From the NCBI GenBank assembly GCA_031292255.1, contig JARLHN010000033.1, positions 124,001 through 188,000 on the forward strand: a stretch of DNA of 64,000 nt. Direction: 5' to 3'. The notes under the pieces are model-generated. The model ran no database searches. It had not been told where the DNA came from and saw only the letters and a program-made list of their open reading frames with translations. Made by a program: the position numbers and the translations under genes. Below are positions 15,844-24,718 of the stretch, in pieces. This DNA comes from Oryzomonas sp. Its GTDB lineage: Bacteria; Desulfobacterota; Desulfuromonadia; Geobacterales; Pseudopelobacteraceae. Within the stretch, counting starts at the first letter, position 1; each line of letters starts with the position of its first letter.

Positions 15844-17298
15844 ATGTTCGAACAAGCCTTCAGAAACATCGACGACGCCCTCAGAAAAGAAGCGGGTTGC
15901 ACAACAGAGTTGGACTACACGGAACAGACCTCCTGGCTGCTGTTTCTGAAATATTTGGATGGGCTGGAGCAGGACAAGGCAATGGAGGCCGAGCTGGAGG
16001 GGAAAACATACTCTTTCCTTCTCGACGAGCAATATCGCTGGGATAGTTGGGCGGCACCAAAAACAAGTGATGGTACGCTTGACCACAATAAGGCACTTAC
16101 CGGCGATGACCTGTGCGAGTTTGTGGACAGCAAGCTGTTTCCCTACCTGCATGCCTTCAAGCAGAAGGCCAGTGGGCCGAACACCATCGAATACAAGATC
16201 GGCGAGATCTTCGGCGAGATCAAGAACAAGATACACAGCGGTTACAACCTGCGCGAGATCATTGACCATATCGACGAGCTGCGCTTCCGCTCCCAGAACG
16301 AGAAGCATGAGCTGTCCCATCTCTACGAGGCCAAGATCAAGAACATGGGCAATGCAGGCAGGAACGGCGGCGAATACTACACTCCGCGCCCGCTTATTCG
16401 CGCCATGGTGCAGGTAGTCAAGCCCAAGGTTGGGGAACGTGTTTACGACGGTGCCTGCGGCTCTGCGGGTTTCTTATGTGAGGCCTTCGACTACATGAAG
16501 GGGTTTAGCGGCCTGACCACCAGCAATTTCAAGGTGCTGCAAACACGCACCTTTATCGGCAAGGAAAAGAAGTCCCTGGCCTATGTCATCGCCATCATGA
16601 ACATGATTTTGCATGGCATCGAAGCCCCAAACATCGTCCACACCAACACCCTGGCCGAGAACCTTGCCGACATCCAAGAGAAAGATCGCATGCACGTGAT
16701 CCTTGCCAATCCTCCCTTTGGCGGCAAGGAGCGCAAGGAGGTACAACAGAACTTTCCCATCCGCACCGGCGAAACCGCCTTCCTCTTCCTCCAGCACTTC
16801 ATCAAAATGCTCAAGGCAGGCGGCAGGGCGGGCGTGGTCATCAAGAACACCTTTCTCTCCAACACCGATAATGCCTCGGTACACTTGAGGAAGCTTCTGC
16901 TGGAGAGTTGTAACCTGCACACCGTCCTCGATTGCCCTGGCGGCACCTTCCAGGGCGCGGGAGTCAAGACTGTAGTGTTGTTCTTCGAGAAGGGCGCGCC
17001 AACGCGCAAGGTCTGGTACTACCAACTGGAACCCGGCCGCAACATGGGCAAGACCAACCCGCTGAATGACGCTGATTTGGCAGAGTTCGTCAAACTGCAA
17101 AAAGCTTTTGCTGACTCGCCCAAGAGCTGGAGCGTTGATACGGCCAACATCAACCAGAACACCTTTGATCTCTCGGTGAAAAACCCTGACGGCGGCGGGG
17201 AGATCATCCATCGTACTCCGCAGGTAATCATGGACGAGATTGCGGAGCTGGACGCTGAGAGTACGCAAGTGCTGGCAAACATCAGGGCATTGCTATGA
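15844..17298 (+). CDS. hsdM: Type I restriction-modification system, DNA methyltransferase subunit M
   Basis: 484 residues. An N-terminal helical HsdM_N domain (about 1-130) precedes the N6-adenine methyltransferase domain, with SAM motif I DGACGSAGF (about 202-210) and catalytic NPPF at 289-292. AGGAAACC precedes the ATG. With HsdS it methylates adenine in a bipartite target; with HsdR it forms the restriction complex. The stop codon overlaps the hsdS start (ATGA). The gene is full length with no sign of damage. Confidence 0.96.
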   Translation: MFEQAFRNIDDALRKEAGCTTELDYTEQTSWLLFLKYLDGLEQDKAMEAELEGKTYSFLLDEQYRWDSWAAPKTSDGTLDHNKALTGDDLCEFVDSKLFPYLHAFKQKASGPNTIEYKIGEIFGEIKNKIHSGYNLREIIDHIDELRFRSQNEKHELSHLYEAKIKNMGNAGRNGGEYYTPRPLIRAMVQVVKPKVGERVYDGACGSAGFLCEAFDYMKGFSGLTTSNFKVLQTRTFIGKEKKSLAYVIAIMNMILHGIEAPNIVHTNTLAENLADIQEKDRMHVILANPPFGGKERKEVQQNFPIRTGETAFLFLQHFIKMLKAGGRAGVVIKNTFLSNTDNASVHLRKLLLESCNLHTVLDCPGGTFQGAGVKTVVLFFEKGAPTRKVWYYQLEPGRNMGKTNPLNDADLAEFVKLQKAFADSPKSWSVDTANINQNTFDLSVKNPDGGGEIIHRTPQVIMDEIAELDAESTQVLANIRALL

Positions 17299-18530
17299 AG
17301 GCAGGATGGAAGGTAAAGAAGCTTGGGTGTCTTTGCGAAATTGAATTAGGTAAGACGCCATCACGAGCAAACAAAGCCTTTTGGGACGAGAAGTGTGAAA
17401 CCAGTAACGTTTGGCTGTCTATAGCCGACCTTCTGAATGGGGAGGGTAACTTTGTTACTGACAGCAAAGAATACCTTTCTGATAAAGGAGCCGCCGTTTC
17501 AAAGATAGTTCGCAAAGGGACATTATTAGTCAGTTTCAAACTCACGCTCGGACGACTGGCATTTGCAGGGCGAGACCTCTTCACTAATGAAGCTATAGCC
17601 GCACTCAACCTCTTTAAAGAACAGGTTTTATCGAAAGAATATCTGTTTTATTTTCTCCATCATTTTGACTGGGATAAAGCCTGTGAAGGAGATGTAAAAC
17701 TCAAAGGCAAAACGCTTAACAAAGCAAAGCTGAAGGAGATGGATGTCCATTTCCCTACACTCTCTGAACAGCAGCACATTGTTGGCATTCTCGACAAAGC
17801 GTTTGAAGGCATCGCCACTGCCAAGGCCAAGGCCGAAAAAAACCTCCAGAACGCTCGTGCTCTCTTTGAAGGCCATCTGCAATCTGTATTTACTAAGCGC
17901 GGTAATGGTTGGGTGGAAAAGCAATTAGGGGATAAAAACCTATTGGAGATAGTCGATGGCGACCGTGGAGCTAATTATCCGAAAACCACGGATTTCTATG
18001 ATGAGGGCCACTGTCTCTTCTTGAACACAAAGAACGTCCGCCCCAATGGGTTTGACTTTGAATCCACTATGTTCATTACTGCCGATAAAGACAGCAAACT
18101 TCGTAAGGGCAAGCTCAAGCGCGATGATGTTGTTATGACAACTCGTGGCACCATTGGCAATATTGGGCACTTTTCCAAGGATGTACCCTTTGACAACATT
18201 CGTATCAATTCTGGTATGCTCATTTTCCGTCCAAACAAATTATCGTTGTTGCCTTCATTTCTTTTTGAGATCCTGAGGTCTGAAATAGTGAAGGAACAGA
18301 TCAGAAACCAAACAACTGGTGCGGCACAACCACAGTTACCAATAAAGACACTGGTTAACTTCAAAATACCAGTCCCCCAAAAACTCGAAGAACAACATTC
18401 CATTGTTAACGAATTACGCGCGTTTGAACCGGAAACCCAACGCCTCGAATCCATCTACCAACAGAAACTCGCTAAGCTGGAGGAGTTGAAGAAATCCCTA
18501 CTGCACCAAGCCTTCACCGGCCAGCTTTAG
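17295..18530 (+). CDS. hsdS: Type I restriction-modification system, specificity subunit S
   Basis: 411 residues in the usual tandem plan: target-recognition domain 1 (about 1-150), central helical conserved region (LSEQQHIVGILDKAFEGIAT...), target-recognition domain 2 (about 200-355), and a C-terminal conserved helix ending KLEELKKSLLHQAFTGQL. It determines the DNA target and bridges two HsdM. Base composition in the recognition domains is more A+T-rich than hsdM and hsdR, as is common for swapped specificity domains. Its last 57 bp, from AAGCTGG at 18474 to the stop, recur as the tails of two downstream relics. Confidence 0.95.
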   Translation: MKAGWKVKKLGCLCEIELGKTPSRANKAFWDEKCETSNVWLSIADLLNGEGNFVTDSKEYLSDKGAAVSKIVRKGTLLVSFKLTLGRLAFAGRDLFTNEAIAALNLFKEQVLSKEYLFYFLHHFDWDKACEGDVKLKGKTLNKAKLKEMDVHFPTLSEQQHIVGILDKAFEGIATAKAKAEKNLQNARALFEGHLQSVFTKRGNGWVEKQLGDKNLLEIVDGDRGANYPKTTDFYDEGHCLFLNTKNVRPNGFDFESTMFITADKDSKLRKGKLKRDDVVMTTRGTIGNIGHFSKDVPFDNIRINSGMLIFRPNKLSLLPSFLFEILRSEIVKEQIRNQTTGAAQPQLPIKTLVNFKIPVPQKLEEQHSIVNELRAFEPETQRLESIYQQKLAKLEELKKSLLHQAFTGQL

Positions 18531-18539
18531 GAGCGTCGC

Positions 18540-18774
18540 ATGAACGAAACCGAAACCCGAGCCGAGCATGTTGATCCCGCCCTGAAAACGGCCGGTTGGG
18601 GTATGGTCGAGGGGAGCCGCATCCGGCGAGTATCCAAATACCCTCGACCGCATCGGGGGACATGGCAAGCTGGGCAAGGCGCTGACGGCCGACTATGTGA
18701 TGAAATACTGCAATACCAAGCTGGAAGAGTTAAAGAAGTCCCTGCTGCACCAAGCCTTTACGGAGGCATTGTAG
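18540..18774 (+). pseudogene. hsdR-head/hsdS-tail fusion relic, copy 1
   Basis: Nine bases after hsdS an ATG opens a sequence closely similar to the first 180 bp of intact hsdR (MNETETRAEHVDPALKTAGW against MNEAETRAEHIDPALKAVGW), but it is 178 bp long and frameshifted. At AAGCTGG (18718-18724) it switches to a 57-bp sequence matching the end of hsdS (KLEELKKSLLHQAFTEAL, stop at 18772). It keeps the position of the first nuclease aspartate but loses the ExK residues and all helicase motors, so no active HsdR can result. It is read as one unit of a duplicated hsdS-hsdR junction. Confidence 0.85.
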
Positions 18775-18808
18775 CAATATCCTTGCAGAAATACATGACA
18801 CCGATATA

Positions 18809-19963
18809 ATGACGATTATGGAGCGTATACAGTCTATAAATCATGAACGTATTGCATGGTGTTGTGCCGATTACGGCATTACTCCCGATGAACTTGCATA
18901 CGAACTTGGTATCGCAGCTTCCAGCATGGAGCACGTCATGGCCGGCGAAGACGGAATGACGTTCAATCAGTTGCGTAAGGTGGCTGAGTACTTTGGCCGG
19001 GGTGTACTTTTTTTCTTGGAGTCCGGGCCGGTTGATGTTGCTCAGGTTCATACCGCACAATTTCGCACACTTGCCAACCAGAAGCCAGAGTTGACTCCCA
19101 GTCTGAAAAAACTGATTGAACGGGTCGAAAAACAGCGTGCTGTGTACGTGAGCCTGCGTGAAGACCTGGATGATACTGAGCGGTTGCAGTTCACTCCACC
19201 TGAACTAGCCCGTAAAAACCCGCAGGAAGCTGCAAGCATTGTACGTAAATGGCTGGGGTTAGCTGAAGAGAATGATTTTAATTCGTACCGCGAAGCGGTT
19301 GAAGCGCAAGGCCTGCTGGTTTTTCGTAGTAATGGCTACAATGGAAAATGGCAGATTCCTAAACAAAATCCGATTCTCGGTTTCGCTCTGTATGATTCTA
19401 CCTGTCCAGTCATAGTCATCAAAAAGCAGTCCTCGGATACTCAGCAATCGTTTACGCTCATACACGAACTGGCGCATCTGTTGCTTCATAAAACCAGTTC
19501 GATTGATGACGACCAAGATTTTCAGTCTCACCAAGGCAATGAACGTGATGCAAATGCATTTGCCGGTCATCTGCTGGTGCCTAATGTTTTTTTGACGGTC
19601 ATTCGGGATGTGGGTCGCCCTCATGAGGTATCTCGATACGATGAGTGGCTTGCACCACAACGGAAAGCGTGGGGTATAAGTGCGGAGGTAATTTTACGCC
19701 GCTTACTGGATGCAGGTCGTCTGACTCACACTCAGTATAGCGCCTATCGGCAGTGGCGAGCGAAACTGCCTGTTCAGGAAGCTGATGGAACACGGCAGTA
19801 TCGATATCGTGAACCCAGACATTTGTTCGGTGACATGTTTGTTCGGACGGTGTTAGATGCGCTGAATGCGCATCATATAACACTTGCCAAAGCAAGTACG
19901 TATCTTGACAGTCTGAAGATTAAGGACCTGCATCAGTTGGAGAATCTCTATGCCGGTCTTTGA
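18809..19963 (+). CDS. HTH-ImmA/IrrE-family zinc peptidase (regulator or antitoxin)
   Basis: 384 residues. An N-terminal helix-turn-helix-like segment (about 10-65, GITPDELAYELGIAASSMEH) precedes an ImmA/IrrE metallopeptidase domain with H219-E-L-A-H223 (LIHELAHLLLH) and a downstream acidic/Asn helix (NERDANAFAGHLLVP). This is the COG2856 architecture used in toxin-antitoxin pairs and in control of mobile elements. It overlaps the next gene (DUF4411) by 14 bp. The DNA is clearly more A+T-rich than hsdM/hsdR, a sign of separate origin. A start at 18818 is also possible. It sits as cargo between the two hsdR/hsdS relics. Confidence 0.87.
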   Translation: MTIMERIQSINHERIAWCCADYGITPDELAYELGIAASSMEHVMAGEDGMTFNQLRKVAEYFGRGVLFFLESGPVDVAQVHTAQFRTLANQKPELTPSLKKLIERVEKQRAVYVSLREDLDDTERLQFTPPELARKNPQEAASIVRKWLGLAEENDFNSYREAVEAQGLLVFRSNGYNGKWQIPKQNPILGFALYDSTCPVIVIKKQSSDTQQSFTLIHELAHLLLHKTSSIDDDQDFQSHQGNERDANAFAGHLLVPNVFLTVIRDVGRPHEVSRYDEWLAPQRKAWGISAEVILRRLLDAGRLTHTQYSAYRQWRAKLPVQEADGTRQYRYREPRHLFGDMFVRTVLDALNAHHITLAKASTYLDSLKIKDLHQLENLYAGL

Positions 19964-20432
19964 TGCGTCATCTATGATCTATGCATGGGATAACTACCCA
20001 ATACTTCAGTTTCCGGGCTTGTGGGAGTGGATGTCAAAGCAGATTAAGGCGAATATAATTGCAATGCCAAGTGTGGCATTTGAAGAGGTTGAAAACAAAA
20101 CGCCTGAATGTGCTGATTGGCTCAAGGATAACGACATTGAACAAATTGAAATCAATAATACGGTTCTGAATGAGGCCATGCGGATTAAAAAACTTGTTGG
20201 AATTGTTGATGATAAATACCATCCCAAGGGTGTTGGAGAGAACGATTTACTTATCATTGCAACGGCAAGAGCATATAAAGCCGAATTGATATCAGATGAA
20301 GAACGGCAAGCCATTCACCCCAAAGAACCCACCAAGAGAAAAATTCCAGCCGTATGTTCCTTGAAAGATGTTGCTGTCCCCTGCACTAATTTTCTCGGAT
20401 TCATCAAACATTCTGGTGAGATATTCCGTTAA
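19950..20432 (+). CDS. DUF4411 PIN-like protein, probable toxin
   Basis: 160 residues. An early aspartate in MPVFDASSMIYAWDNYP, a later acidic cluster (GENDLLIIATARAYKAELIS) and the SDE motif give a PIN-like nuclease pattern. DUF4411 proteins typically pair with an HTH-ImmA protein encoded just upstream, as here (14-bp overlap). The pair is best read as a type II-like toxin-antitoxin module, with this protein as the likely RNase toxin. Activity is inferred from family and context. Confidence 0.8.
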   Translation: MPVFDASSMIYAWDNYPILQFPGLWEWMSKQIKANIIAMPSVAFEEVENKTPECADWLKDNDIEQIEINNTVLNEAMRIKKLVGIVDDKYHPKGVGENDLLIIATARAYKAELISDEERQAIHPKEPTKRKIPAVCSLKDVAVPCTNFLGFIKHSGEIFR

Positions 20433-20504
20433 TAGTCTTCGAATTGCTGAATATTGCGGAAGGCGACGATGTATTTTGAGTCTCACCCAGGACACATAAG
20501 AGGT

Positions 20505-20570
20505 TTTGTGTCTCATAAAACGTAAAAAATGAGACACAAACGACCTAACATCTAATAAATGAGACATAAA
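20505..20570. repeat. Cluster of TTTGTGTCTCAT motifs (inverted and direct)
   Basis: A perfect 12-bp inverted repeat TTTGTGTCTCAT (20505-20516) / ATGAGACACAAA (20529-20540) surrounds an A-rich 12-nt loop. A near-identical third copy, ATGAGACATAAA, lies at 20559-20570, ending 3 bp before the ATG of relic 2. It could be an operator, an attachment-like site or a terminator; it lies exactly at a module boundary. Confidence 0.55.
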
Positions 20571-20573
20571 ACC

Positions 20574-20809
20574 ATGAACGAAGCCGAAACCCGAGCCGAA
20601 CATATCGATCCTGCCTTGAAAGCGGCGGGTTGGGGTGTGGCCGAGGGAAGCCGTATCCGGCGCGAGTACCCGATCACCCTTGGCTGCATCGAGGGACATA
20701 CAAGCGGGGCAAGGCGCTGACGGCCGACTATGTGCTGGAATACCACAATACAAAGCTGGAAAAGTTGAAGAAGTCCCTGCTGCACCAAGCCTTCGGCGGG
20801 AGTTTATAG
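20574..20809 (+). pseudogene. hsdR-head/hsdS-tail fusion relic, copy 2
   Basis: From the ATG at 20574 the sequence follows the intact hsdR 5' end (MNEAETRAEHIDPALKAAGW...) for 179 bp with a one-base frameshift. At AAGCTGG (20753-20759) it switches to a 57-bp hsdS-like tail (KLEKLKKSLLHQAFGGSL, stop at 20807). The junction is at the same word as in copy 1. In several places its bases are closer to intact hsdR than copy 1 is. It separates the two cargo modules and cannot encode a working subunit. Confidence 0.85.
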
Positions 20810-20872
20810 CAGGCTTAAAAAGTATCGTGGGCAATTTACAAGATATTATCAAAAGAAAAGGGAGGTAAAGGC

Positions 20873-21661
20873 ATGAAAAAATTGTTTGCATCTGTAATAT
20901 TGGTACTTTTAACGGGAATATTTCTGTGTGCATGCAGTAAAAAAGATGCTGGTAAAAGCCTTTTGGATGAAGTATCTGGAGTTTGGCGTGCTAAAACTGA
21001 TGGAGCAATGGTCTCAATCATTTATGCTGATAAAAAAATGCGGCTTTTCATCGGTGAGAATCCCGTCTCCGTAACACTTGGTGAAATTGATGACGCAAAC
21101 AAGACAATTAACCTAAATGTAACAACAAATCTCGGAAAGCCAGGCGTCTGGACAATACGTCAAATTTGGGATAAGGAACACAAGAGTTTTTACTTACAGA
21201 TGACGCTGCATGACGGTATTCAGGATGAATTGACTTTTGTCAGGAAAATATCGTCTGATGATATGAACCGATTCGCAAATTCCGAGGCCAAACAAACTGG
21301 TGCAATTGGTGCAGCAGCAAAATCATCGAGCGAACAGCCGCAAACCACGGCATCAGAGCCCCCTCCCAATCCTGATGTCAGCAATCAAAACCAGCCCTCT
21401 CCTCAAGCTAATTGGTCCCCAAGCTTTGACTGCGCAAAAGTAAGTAATGGACCTGAACGTCTGATTTGCTCCAATAAAGAACTATCTGAAGCAGATGTTC
21501 AGTTGGCGCAAGCATACAAGGCTGCTTTGAAAAACTCTTCAAACAAAGGTACGCTTAAGCAGCAACAGGCAGCTTGGCTAAAAAATGAAAGAAATGCAAG
21601 CTCTGATGCAGAAAGCATGCTGCGGGTTTATAAAGAGCGCATAGCCGTATTGTCAAAGTGA
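20873..21661 (+). CDS. Lipoprotein with C-terminal LprI/DUF1311 domain
   Basis: 262 residues. The signal peptide MKKLFASVILVLLTGIFLCA runs into C-S-K-K, giving a lipobox (L-C-A-C) and a lipidated cysteine at residue 22. A beta-rich middle domain (about 35-140) follows, then a Q/P/S linker. The C-terminal segment (SFDCAKVSNGPERLICSNKE and QLAQAYKAAL) is an LprI-type domain with the paired cysteines, a family linked to lysozyme inhibition. It is separated by only a few bases from the amidase gene, so the two form a cell-wall-directed unit. A+T-rich cargo between relic 2 and hsdR. Confidence 0.78.
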   Translation: MKKLFASVILVLLTGIFLCACSKKDAGKSLLDEVSGVWRAKTDGAMVSIIYADKKMRLFIGENPVSVTLGEIDDANKTINLNVTTNLGKPGVWTIRQIWDKEHKSFYLQMTLHDGIQDELTFVRKISSDDMNRFANSEAKQTGAIGAAAKSSSEQPQTTASEPPPNPDVSNQNQPSPQANWSPSFDCAKVSNGPERLICSNKELSEADVQLAQAYKAALKNSSNKGTLKQQQAAWLKNERNASSDAESMLRVYKERIAVLSK

Positions 21662-21665
21662 TTTG

Positions 21666-22400
21666 ATGTTAAATGTGAGGATAGCATTAGTGCAGAGGCT
21701 TCACTTTCATGGCGTTAGGAGCGTATTTGCTGCTTTGGTGTTACTACAGGTTCCTCTTATTGTTGAAGCGTCCTCAATAACCATAGATTCAGGACACTCA
21801 CCAAAGCACCCAGGGACAACCTCATGTAGCGGTAAGCCCGAATATTACTTTAACGACACGTTGAGTGCTGATGTTATTAAACGTCTCAGAAGGTTTGACA
21901 TTACAGTGCGATTGAGCCGGGCGCGAGGTGCAGAAGTTGCCCTCGATGCCCGTGCTAAATCGTCCAATGGAACCGATGTCCTACTTTCCATACATCACGA
22001 CTCAGTGCAACCACAATTCATAACCAACAATAATCAACATAAAGGGCAGTGTTCAGAAAAAGCTTCAGGTTTTTCTATTTTCGTCTCCGCACTAAACCCT
22101 CAGTATGAACAATCTCTTGTATATGCGCGGCGTCTCGGTCAAGCTCTTATTCGTCGAGGGTTGAAACCTACGTTGCACCATTCGGAGGCTATACCCGGGG
22201 AAAACCGGAAATTGTTAGACAAAAATTTGGGAATTTACCAGTTTAATGAGTTAATAGTATTGAAGAAATCCCCTACGCCAGCTTTGTTGTTAGAGGCAGC
22301 GGTAATAGTTAATCCAGAGGATGAATCACTTGCATCTTCAAGCGATTTTAGGATTTCAATAGCAGATGCCATTCGTGACATGATGAGGCCGACACAGTGA
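21666..22400 (+). CDS. N-acetylmuramoyl-L-alanine amidase (Amidase_3)
   Basis: 244 residues from the ATG at 21666 (a TTG one codon earlier is possible). The N-terminus has a signal-peptide-like hydrophobic stretch (SVFAALVLLQVPLIVEASS). Zinc ligands are visible as the His in ITIDSGHSPKHPG, the Glu in KPEYYFND and the His in LLSIHHDS; the catalytic Glu is in LLLEAAVIVNPEDE. It should cleave the amide between muramic acid and stem peptide in the periplasm. It is encoded directly after an LprI-type lipoprotein, and its stop overlaps the hsdR GTG start (GTGA), so hsdR translation may be coupled to it. Confidence 0.85.
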   Translation: MLNVRIALVQRLHFHGVRSVFAALVLLQVPLIVEASSITIDSGHSPKHPGTTSCSGKPEYYFNDTLSADVIKRLRRFDITVRLSRARGAEVALDARAKSSNGTDVLLSIHHDSVQPQFITNNNQHKGQCSEKASGFSIFVSALNPQYEQSLVYARRLGQALIRRGLKPTLHHSEAIPGENRKLLDKNLGIYQFNELIVLKKSPTPALLLEAAVIVNPEDESLASSSDFRISIADAIRDMMRPTQ

Positions 22401-24718
22401 ACGAAGCCGAAACCAGAGCTGAACATATCGATCCCGCCTTGAAAGCGGTGGGTTGGGGTGTGGTCGAAGGAAGCCGTATCCGGCGCGAGTACCCGATCAC
22501 TCTGGGTCGCATCGAAGGACAAGGCAAGCGCGGCAAGGCGCTGACGGCCGACTATGTGCTGGAGTACCGCAACACCAAGCTGGCGGTGGTGGAGGCCAAG
22601 GCGTGGGACAAGCCGCTAACGGAAGGCGTGGGACAGGCCAAGGAGTATGCGGGCAAGCTGGCTATCCGCTTCACCTATGCCACCAATGGGCAGGGCATCT
22701 ACGGCATTGATATGGAAACCGGTGTCGAGGGTGGGCAGGCGCAGTATCCGGCACCGGATGAACTCTGGAATCTCACCTTTGCCATCCATAACGCCTGGCG
22801 TGACCGCTTCGCCGCCGTGCCGTTCGAGGATCGGGGCGGCTACTTCCAGGGGCGCTATTATCAAGACATAGCCATTGAGAGGGCTCTTGAGGCAATCGCA
22901 GACAACCGGCAGCGCATTCTTCTGACACTGGCCACCGGTACGGGCAAGACCTTCATCGCCTTCCAGGTCGCCTGGAAACTGTTTCACAGCCGGTGGAACC
23001 TGATCGACGGGAAGAAAGAGGGGGAACCGACCCGCCGGCCACGCATCCTGTTCCTCGCCGACCGCAACATTCTGGCCGACCAAGCCTACAACGCCTTTTC
23101 AGCCTTCCCCGAGGATGCCCTTGTCCGTATTGCACCCGACGAGATCAAGAAGAAGGGCAAGGTTCCCAAGAACGGCAGCATTTTCTTCACCATCTTCCAG
23201 ACCTTCATGTGCGGTCCGGAGGATACCCCTTACTTCGGCGAGTACCCGCCGGATTTCTTCGACTTCATCGTTATCGACGAGTGCCACCGGGGCGGTGCCA
23301 ACGACGAGAGCAACTGGCGCGGTATCATGGACTATTTCACGCCCGCCGTGCAACTCGGCCTTACCGCCACGCCCAAGCGCAAGGATAATGTAGATACCTA
23401 CGCCTATTTCGGCGATCCGGTATTCATCTACTCACTCAAGGACGGCATCAATGACGGCTACCTCACGCCGTTCAGGGTGAAGCAGATTTCCACGACCCTG
23501 GACGAATATATCTATACCCCCGACGACAAGGTGGTCGAAGGCGAGATCGAAGCGGGCAAGCGGTATGAGGAACCGGATTTCAACAGGATCATTGAGATCA
23601 AGGAGCGGGAGAAGAAGCGGGTCGAGATATTCATGTCGCATATCGACCAGCGGGAGAAGACGCTGGTCTTCTGTGCCACCCAGGATCACGCCCTGGCAGT
23701 GCGCGACCTCATCAACCAGATGAAGAACAACAATGACCCGAACTACTGCCAAAGGGTGACGGCCAACGATGCCGCCTTGGGCGAACAGCACCTGCGGGAC
23801 TTCCAGGACAACGAGAAGACCATCCCCACCATTTTGACCACCTCTCAGAAACTCTCCACCGGCGTTGACGCGCGCAATATCCGCAATATTGTGTTGATGC
23901 GGCCGATAAATTCCATGATCGAGTTCAAGCAGATCATCGGGCGCGGCACCCGCCTCTACGACGGCAAGGATTATTTCACCATTTACGATTTCGTCAAGGC
24001 GTACCACCACTTCAACGACCCGGAGTGGGACGGCGAACCGATGGAACCCGAGGCCCACCAGATCCCCGGAATTCCACCAACCCTCGAAGAGAGACAGAGA
24101 GACCGTGTCAAAGAGGCAACCACGGACTACCGCAAGAGGCAAAAGATCAAAATCAGGCTGGCCGACGGCAAGGAGCGCGCCATCCAGCACATGATGGCGA
24201 CGAGCTTCTGGCATCCGGACGGCACCCCAATGTCGGCGCAGCAGTTCATGGAGGCGCTTTTTGGCAAGTTGCCCGAGTTCTTCAAGGACGAAGCGGAACT
24301 TCGCGCCGTGTGGAGCAGGCCGGATACGCGCAGGAAACTGCTGGAGGGGCTGGCCGAGAAGGGTTTCGGCAAGGACCAGCTGGCCGAAATGCAGAAGATT
24401 ATCGACGCGGAGAAAAGCGACTTGTTCGACGTGCTGGCCAATGTCGCCTATGCCCTGCCGCCGCTCACGCGCGAAGAGCGGGCCGCCAAGGCCAGGGTGA
24501 TCATCACTCAGCATTTCACCACCAGGCAGCAGGTGTTCCTAGGTTTCGTACTCTCCCATTACGTGACTATCGGCGTGGAAGAGCTTGACCAGGCAAAGCT
24601 GACCCCTCTCTTGAAGCTCAAGTATCACGACTCCATCGCCGATGCCGTGGAAGACTTGGGCAGGCCGGAAGAGATCGGAAAGGTATTTGCGGGTTTTCAG
24701 AAATATCTCTATCCCTGA
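22397..24718 (+). CDS. hsdR: Type I restriction-modification system, endonuclease/translocase subunit R
   Basis: 773 residues. The N-terminal PD-(D/E)xK nuclease region has D52 and E66-A-K68 (VVEAKAWDK). The SF2 motor follows with Walker A ATGTGKT (about 179-185), DECH (294-297) and the helicase C-terminal domain with QIIGRGTRLYDGKD. A C-terminal helical region contacts the methylase. The length suits the short HsdR subgroup. It starts with GTG overlapping the amidase stop, whereas both relics begin with ATG. The motifs are intact, so restriction is probably functional, although the gene is now about 3.9 kb from hsdS. Confidence 0.95.
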   Translation: MNEAETRAEHIDPALKAVGWGVVEGSRIRREYPITLGRIEGQGKRGKALTADYVLEYRNTKLAVVEAKAWDKPLTEGVGQAKEYAGKLAIRFTYATNGQGIYGIDMETGVEGGQAQYPAPDELWNLTFAIHNAWRDRFAAVPFEDRGGYFQGRYYQDIAIERALEAIADNRQRILLTLATGTGKTFIAFQVAWKLFHSRWNLIDGKKEGEPTRRPRILFLADRNILADQAYNAFSAFPEDALVRIAPDEIKKKGKVPKNGSIFFTIFQTFMCGPEDTPYFGEYPPDFFDFIVIDECHRGGANDESNWRGIMDYFTPAVQLGLTATPKRKDNVDTYAYFGDPVFIYSLKDGINDGYLTPFRVKQISTTLDEYIYTPDDKVVEGEIEAGKRYEEPDFNRIIEIKEREKKRVEIFMSHIDQREKTLVFCATQDHALAVRDLINQMKNNNDPNYCQRVTANDAALGEQHLRDFQDNEKTIPTILTTSQKLSTGVDARNIRNIVLMRPINSMIEFKQIIGRGTRLYDGKDYFTIYDFVKAYHHFNDPEWDGEPMEPEAHQIPGIPPTLEERQRDRVKEATTDYRKRQKIKIRLADGKERAIQHMMATSFWHPDGTPMSAQQFMEALFGKLPEFFKDEAELRAVWSRPDTRRKLLEGLAEKGFGKDQLAEMQKIIDAEKSDLFDVLANVAYALPPLTREERAAKARVIITQHFTTRQQVFLGFVLSHYVTIGVEELDQAKLTPLLKLKYHDSIADAVEDLGRPEEIGKVFAGFQKYLYP

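Follow-up and report, generated by a model that had tools for sequence, protein, structure and literature searches.

Organization of the hsd locus

The 64,000-nucleotide stretch of Oryzomonas sp. DNA analysed here (contig JARLHN010000033.1, positions 124,001 to 188,000; hereafter the window) contains a type I restriction–modification locus in which two gene relics and two modules of cargo genes lie between the specificity gene hsdS and the restriction gene hsdR (Table 1). The locus is of the EcoAI/FtnUII type: HsdR is matched by the NCBIfam equivalog model NF046051 with 825 bits against a cutoff of 550, and hsdM and hsdS, recognized with Pfam and PADLOC, adjoin it.

Both relics consist of the 5′ end of hsdR (the head, 185–186 bp) fused at the word AAGCTGG to the 57 bp 3′ end of hsdS (the tail). 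The distance from the start codon to AAGCTGG is 178 bp in relic 1 (start at 18540), 179 bp in relic 2 (20574) and 180 bp in hsdR (22397), and the segment from AAGCTGG to the stop measures 57 bp in hsdS and in each relic. These recomputed distances agree with an earlier, sequence-only reading of the window, and its description of the relics as hsdR-head/hsdS-tail fusions at a microhomology, separating cargo modules, holds. Its four positions for AAGCTGG (18474, 18718, 20753 and 22577) are correct, although between 15000 and 25000 the word also occurs at 18667 in the relic 1 head and at 22655 in hsdR. Neither relic is an intact gene, the head being two bases shorter than that of hsdR in relic 1 and one base shorter in relic 2. 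The likeness to hsdR and hsdS is far above chance: when relic 2 is compared with its own genome using blastn, relic 1 scores 249 bits, the hsdR head 247 bits and the hsdS tail 59 bits (E 1.5e-9). The ends of the two tails differ, and the final codons of the relic 1 tail and the bases that follow resemble the hsdS end that precedes the same cargo in another locus (L055, see below). A strict pattern for the junction has two matches in the window and none in 100 shuffles. It also has no match in genome_contigs or viral_contigs; we judge it too strict, because records in genome_contigs do contain fusions that have other junctions.

Table 1. Features of the hsd locus, in window positions
Feature	Position	Strand	Evidence
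hsdM, type I methyltransferase	15844..17298	+	Pfam N6_Mtase 5.3e-62; PADLOC MTase_I 2.9e-161
hsdS, specificity subunit	17295..18530	+	Pfam Methylase_S 1.9e-28
hsdS tail, final 57 bp from AAGCTGG	18474-18530	+	
Spacer, 9 bp, GAGCGTCGC, precedes relic 1	18531..18539	+	
Relic 1 head, hsdR 5′ end, 82% to present hsdR head, 2-base loss	18540..18724	+	
Relic 1 tail, hsdS 3′ end	18718..18774	+	
Cargo 1a, ImmA/IrrE (Peptidase_M78), RmrA-like antitoxin	18809..19963	+	Pfam 3.7e-16; PADLOC RmrA 1.8e-21
Cargo 1b, PIN/DUF4411, probable toxin partner	19950..20432	+	Pfam DUF4411 1.5e-17
Fic gene remnant, final 13 codons (ELLNIAEGDDVF + stop)	20441..20479	+	Alignment to gene ends in L093, L116
Leader with TGAGACACAAA-type repeats	20480..20573	+	Common to L093 and L116 hsdR leaders
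Relic 2 head, hsdR 5′ end, 90% to present hsdR head, 1-base loss	20574..20759	+	
Relic 2 tail, hsdS 3′ end	20753..20809	+	
Cargo 2a, LprI (lysozyme-inhibitor-like) domain protein	20873..21661	+	Pfam LprI 1.9e-6
Cargo 2b, N-acetylmuramoyl-L-alanine amidase (Amidase_3)	21663..22400	+	Pfam 3.4e-23, profile match from 21669
hsdR, EcoAI/FtnUII family, 773-codon open frame; head 22397-22583	22397..24718	+	NF046051

Cargo 2a appears lipoprotein-like from its N-terminus, and the stop of cargo 2b overlaps the hsdR start. In a Pfam scan, none of the seven intact proteins encoded in the locus matches a recombinase family. The G+C content is 0.41–0.48 in the cargo genes and 0.58 in both hsdR and the whole window; as that of hsdS itself is 0.446, a low value is not peculiar to the cargo.

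Cargo-free boundaries, lone modules and a third module

Related loci show what the boundary looks like with fewer modules. In a genome of the same genus (L045 in G001), 9 bp separate hsdS from hsdR and there is no cargo. The spacer ahead of relic 1 has the same length and eight of nine bases in common with this boundary, so that the relic 1 head takes the place at which hsdR would start in the absence of cargo. In L055 (G028), ImmA and PIN genes lie between hsdS and hsdR, their proteins are 87% and 87.5% identical to those of the window, and the hsdR head search reported no relic there. DNA homology between the window and L055 begins 15 bp within the relic 1 tail and ends near the PIN stop. 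An ImmA–PIN pair occupies the same interval in L107. In L070 (G084) the hsdS end and ImmA are arranged as in the window, and a long reverse-strand frame, which we would guess to be transposase-like, takes the position of PIN.

Between PIN and relic 2 lie 141 bp, most of which can be aligned to the stretch ahead of hsdR in L093 and L116; there this stretch comprises the 3′ end of a gene and a leader. The L116 gene product matches Pfam Fic and Fic_N. As the Fic 3′ end lies ahead of the relic 2 head, this head probably arrived together with a Fic module that is now almost gone. The sequence-only reading had counted two cargo modules; two are indeed present, and the Fic remnant makes three. Repeated words of the TGAGACACAAA/TTTGTGTCTCA type occur in all three hsdR leaders (window, L093 and L116) and may represent an operator or another regulatory element.

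The LprI–amidase pair (20873-22400) is unlike most cargo elsewhere. Relatives of the amidase were found in six other genomes among 141 of the order, with no hsd match in the stretches fetched, one of which lies at a contig end. A related LprI/amidase pair is adjacent in G093 (L073) and in opposite order in G089 (L072), and neither stretch has an hsdM, hsdS or hsdR match.

Recurrence of hsdR 5′-end copies

Loci were collected from relatives of the window, its class and its phylum, together with 80 loci from genome_contigs (the best 80 of at least 570 confirmed relatives). After deduplication the set contains 114 loci, 108 of them with at least 500 bp upstream, and all heads were compared with all upstream stretches. 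The rule for counting a copy was a blastn match with E <= 1e-3 on the + strand within 4.5 kb upstream of hsdR, the 4.5 kb limit having been chosen after inspection of the initial head-search matches.

Ten of the 114 loci carry such a copy (the window, L056, L090, L091, L112, L115, L156, L157, L163 and L182), a count that includes the window although it was chosen and not sampled. The best match starts at hsdR base 1–5 in nine of the ten. With an internal control query (hsdR bases 400–610) the same rule gives 0/114 on either strand. This speaks against the case that the sequence-only reading had named as refuting it, in which no other type I locus has fused relics or the relics align with unrelated sequence. 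The head query additionally matches on the minus strand within 4.5 kb in 2/114 loci and on the + strand farther off in another 2/114, and the control query has 2 + 2 matches farther off. The L115 match (20 bp, 37 bits) does not exceed these extra matches in strength, and what speaks for it is solely that it starts at base 1 and is followed by an eroded tail; the L056 copy is eroded. In an enlarged set the rule yields 13/132, with none for the control on the + strand and one on the minus strand, and this figure is biased since the added loci were partly fetched for resembling a relic. Separately, L121, L175, L126 and L122 have minus-strand matches of about 35–40 bp (82–83%) to hsdR head bases 28–67, located 2.4–4.2 kb upstream of hsdR.

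A blastn search with relic 2 in 57 genomes including its own gives matches in 13 others and no second full fusion; the best match ends at the hsdR part (query base 186–189) in 12 of these and after base 93 in one. In 76 family genomes the hsdR head search revealed no further short relic. Short open frames at the hsdR head in G027 and G035, a match at a contig end in G093 and a distant match in G078 read as broken or cut hsdR. In E. coli only distant hsdR DNA turns up, in 949 of 5,426 genomes and with one match covering at least 80%, and the plasmid search returned 55 records.

Scars and arrays in other bacteria

Two kinds of scar can be distinguished: head–tail scars, in which an hsdR head is fused to an hsdS tail, and head–cargo scars, in which an hsdR head runs into cargo. 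Clear head–tail scars are found in the window (two), in Azoarcus sp. Aa7 (two, L112), in a planctomycete (scar 2 of L156), and in Nitrospira (L163, from a record titled complete genome, and L157). The sequence-only reading would have been undermined if no other type I locus had fusions, and the Azoarcus, Nitrospira and planctomycete loci do have them. L184, from another Nitrospira, carries the L163 fusion at 93%, and eroded hsdS tails are discerned by eye in L182 and L115. The head–cargo type is represented by L090, scar 2 of L091 and scar 1 of L156; no hsdS tail follows the scar in L090, either scar of L091 or the first scar of L156. The head appears to run into the C-terminal part of a cargo gene at L091 scar 2 and L156 scar 1, although later deletion may also have cut these genes to that part. 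L091 scar 1 stands directly at the hsdS stop, as does relic 1 in the window. In five of the six scar genomes tested hsdR is open over 777–811 codons, and in the sixth (L157) it ends with the contig.

Several of these arrays can be taken apart into modules that are found elsewhere. In L112, the stretch from the hsdS tail through the first cargo gene to the relic head matches L194 and L121, in which hsdR itself follows, and the first cargo gene is found alone between hsdS and hsdR in L194 and others. Over 210 bp, the relic 1 head of L112 is 96% identical to the L194 hsdR head and 93% to its own. L184 is composite: its module 1 and relic match L163, and this module adjoins hsdR in L138, while module 2 matches L145, L135, L191 and L185 and adjoins hsdS in the first three of these. 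Each of the two modules also occurs by itself in the hsdS–hsdR interval, module 1 in L138 and module 2 in L145, L135 and L191. L163 and L184 thus have the first module and relic in common and differ downstream. L156 and L209, a second hsd locus of the same genome, have common modules in a different arrangement.

Two fusions have intact frames, L112:2292-2648 (relic 1, 118 codons) and L156:3107-3403 (98 codons), and their N-terminal parts match the EcoAI hsdR model. They could be taken as maintained small genes whose chimeric HsdR-N/HsdS-C peptides have a function in their own right. We consider this very unlikely: the window relics are frameshifted, L163 has an internal stop, and neither L184 nor L115 is in phase as it stands. 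The relic length is a multiple of three in six of ten cases (both in L112, L156, L157, L163 and L182) and not in both window relics, L184 and L115. If the window and Nitrospira each count once and their indels are taken as secondary, six of seven are in phase (P 0.007 for an expectation of one third each); we do not use this figure as support, as the grouping is ad hoc and the ends chosen for L182 and L112 relic 2 fall short of the stop. In-phase joins are in any case likelier because hsdR and hsdS share KLA/LAA codons, and so they follow in part from the genes themselves.

Microhomology at the junctions

We looked for exact words common to the first 300 bp of hsdR and the final 250 bp of hsdS. 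The near relative L045 serves here as a stand-in for the ancestor of the window, and its longest such word is CCAAGCTGG (9 bp), which is the junction of the window relics. The longest word in L163 is AAGCTCGCCG (10 bp), the junction of the Nitrospira relic, and the second longest in L112 is GCTGGCCGCG (10 bp), the junction of its relic 2. Each of these words is in phase and falls within codons for KLA, KL or LAA. These three are the junctions for which a shared word was resolved among the scars considered, which also include L112 relic 1, L156, L182 and L115. In a comparison with a slightly different tail window, which did not cover L163, 12 of 82 loci have the KLA site as a joint longest match.

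The window and Nitrospira junctions lie at the same NTKLA/NHKLA codons, which would suit a dedicated site-specific cassette system attaching at hsdR codons 60–63. Integron gene-cassette arrays are built stepwise as ordered modules at one site. The locus differs from them in that no recombinase is matched among its seven intact proteins, the repeats are gene ends and the junctions vary: the heads measure 20 to ∼255 bp across the scars and tail lengths vary too. With neither a fixed junction nor a linked recombinase found, a cassette system is the most improbable of the explanations considered here.

Content of the hsdS–hsdR interval

The hsdS end is resolved in 82 loci of the 114-locus set and unresolved in the remaining 32. 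Of those resolved, 21 are cargo-free, with a gap of at most 40 bp, and the gap is longer in the other 61. We scanned 59 cargo proteins from 43 genome_contigs loci (59 of the 63 listed, two scar-bearing L112 frames and two short frames from L156 and L157 being excluded). Pfam matches are to Fic (12), RhuM (8), AAA_21 (3), AAA_15 (3), reverse transcriptase (3), Peptidase_M78 (2), DarT (1) and DUF4411 (1), and the PADLOC candidate models PDC-S05 and PDC-S23 are matched by 8–10 proteins. Judged by these family matches, the interval is rich in predicted toxin–antitoxin and candidate defence genes. Extra frames are also present between hsdM and hsdS in L046, L047, L048, L049, L053 and L056, which could be a second capture interval.

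A model for module capture

The best explanation of these observations is, in our opinion, the capture of modules by recombination in which one end exchanges homologously and the other joins through microhomology, and we consider it likely. The hsdS–hsdR boundary would act as a capture site for short cargo modules, each entering on DNA of another hsdMS–cargo–hsdR locus and flanked by the hsdS tail and hsdR head of the donor. Homologous recombination at both flanks would swap one module for another. With one flank homologous and the other joined by microhomology, the module would be added and a scar left behind. A head–tail scar would then combine the resident hsdR head with an incoming hsdS tail, the homologous exchange taking place in hsdR, while a head–cargo scar would combine an incoming hsdR head with resident cargo, the exchange lying in or before hsdS. 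Such captures can persist because hsdS and hsdR remain whole. For the window we infer, besides the one-ended route and the side that was resident, an order in which a cargo-free hsdMSR locus would have captured ImmA–PIN inside the hsdR head (relic 1) and later a Fic module, of which nearly all was then lost, before LprI–amidase was captured (relic 2). The reduction of the Fic gene to 13 codons may reflect loss of resident DNA, later deletion being an alternative. What is observed directly is the anatomy of the locus, the recurrence of the scars, microhomology at three junctions and, for some of the modules, collinearity with lone-module loci.

A process of this kind has been described. According to a passage in PMC3240628, homology-facilitated illegitimate recombination has one homologous and one illegitimate end, the latter mostly with 3–10 bp of microhomology, and results in insertion accompanied by deletion. 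The three junctions above, at 9–10 bp, fall within this range. In that passage the process is known from transformation and conjugation experiments; here it is deduced from natural scars.

A number of observations weigh against capture. Between the present genes of the window the junction word measures 7 bp, less than an out-of-phase word of 8 bp. For L112 relic 1 no microhomology was resolved, and in the Nitrospira relic heads bases are lost ahead of the junction, which is therefore read across a deletion. Sliding identity reveals no clear crossover step in hsdR, neither for the window against L045 nor for L112 against L194, where every 75 bp step over 1,050 bp is 88–97% identical. Among the 141 genomes of the order, no locus was found with LprI–amidase alone between hsdS and hsdR. 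L090 is a decayed locus with its hsdR frame broken after 97 codons, many of the loci come from metagenome assemblies, and the source assembly of the window itself comprises 44 contigs and is 88% complete. Finally, the two window relic heads are sisters in the tree with weak support (87/82) and have the same junction, so that one junction may have been copied and not made twice, and the polarized changes on their branches are spread over the codon positions (8, 4, 7 and 2, 3, 4), which fits copying within the lineage followed by decay as well as it fits import. A third-position excess, considered as proof of divergence under selection before the relics arose, fails once the changes are polarized with an outgroup.

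An alternative is tandem duplication of the hsdS–hsdR boundary by microhomology within the genome, with unrelated cargo entering each copy afterwards. Duplication yields the same head–tail junction, the relic heads are weak sisters, and the changes on their branches resemble neutral decay. The sequence-only reading had called the relics exactly the product of such a duplication. This does not stand in its plain form, although the copying of one junction may survive. Elsewhere cargo occurs as a single module, preceded by an hsdS end and followed by an hsdR start, as in L055, L107, L194, L138 and L145, the tail ends of the two relics differ, and a Fic 3′ end lies ahead of the relic 2 head. From these three observations together, the two units are unlike copies of one boundary that later received cargo. 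In addition, the L112 relic 1 head is closer to the hsdR of another genome than to its own, and head–cargo scars have no hsdS tail. Two local copies flanking the same original interval are thus not what is found, and we regard pure tandem duplication as unlikely. Import via recombination, which the same reading had preferred, is favoured by our data as well.

The one-ended capture preferred here has a variant in which a fragment consisting of hsdS tail, cargo and hsdR head, either incoming or excised, closes on itself at the microhomology and enters the hsdR head by a single crossover, nothing resident being lost. The product is the same, and in a passage on one-ended recombination in E. coli (PMC3240628) linear DNA is degraded or circularized and integrated by a single crossover. 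A circle alone does not explain the head–cargo scars, and we think this variant rather doubtful. One-ended import thus ranks first, the circle second and pure tandem duplication third, and the estimates for the first two overlap.

A more far-reaching form of capture is a reasonable conjecture that we do not expect to hold in full: the hsdS–hsdR boundary of EcoAI-type loci might be a self-feeding, integrase-free capture array. Each one-ended capture would leave a new hsdR-head/hsdS-tail repeat. By offering homology, this repeat would then allow a further module to be gained, individual modules to be exchanged, and modules to be lost cleanly with hsdR kept whole. The KLA/LAA codons shared by hsdR and hsdS would be an inherent attachment site acting through microhomology, and the order of assembly of a defence island would be readable from the scars.

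Relation to known systems and implications

Defence genes within hsd operons include the rlo genes of Campylobacter. A passage in PMC12255303 describes DarTG2 of the E. coli RRDM island as lying between hsdS and hsdR, the same interval as the window cargo, and already suggests this site as a potential recombination hot spot, so that this idea is not new here. Similarly, prrC is embedded in the type I operon EcoprrI (passage in PMC3874165). The window differs from both in what these two passages contain, which is without scars, stacking order or a joining mechanism. Titles and abstracts of the open-licence PMC literature yielded no report of such hsdR–hsdS scars. Cargo 1a matches the RmrA antitoxin models (1.8e-21) of RosmerTA, a family in which the toxins vary (passage in PMC10440598). 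The difference lies in the putative toxin partner, the PIN/DUF4411 protein of cargo 1b, which has no match in PADLOC.

How clusters of defence genes arise is still an open question, and if the reading given here is true, the scars are a physical record that cargo was added, and not just swapped, at a common type of defence locus. They can be searched for by sequence and would then give the direction and order of acquisition as well as candidate donor loci, and one-ended recombination at microhomology would become testable in laboratory strains. As the same kind of scar occurs in unrelated bacteria, it may provide a readable record of how defence clusters grow.

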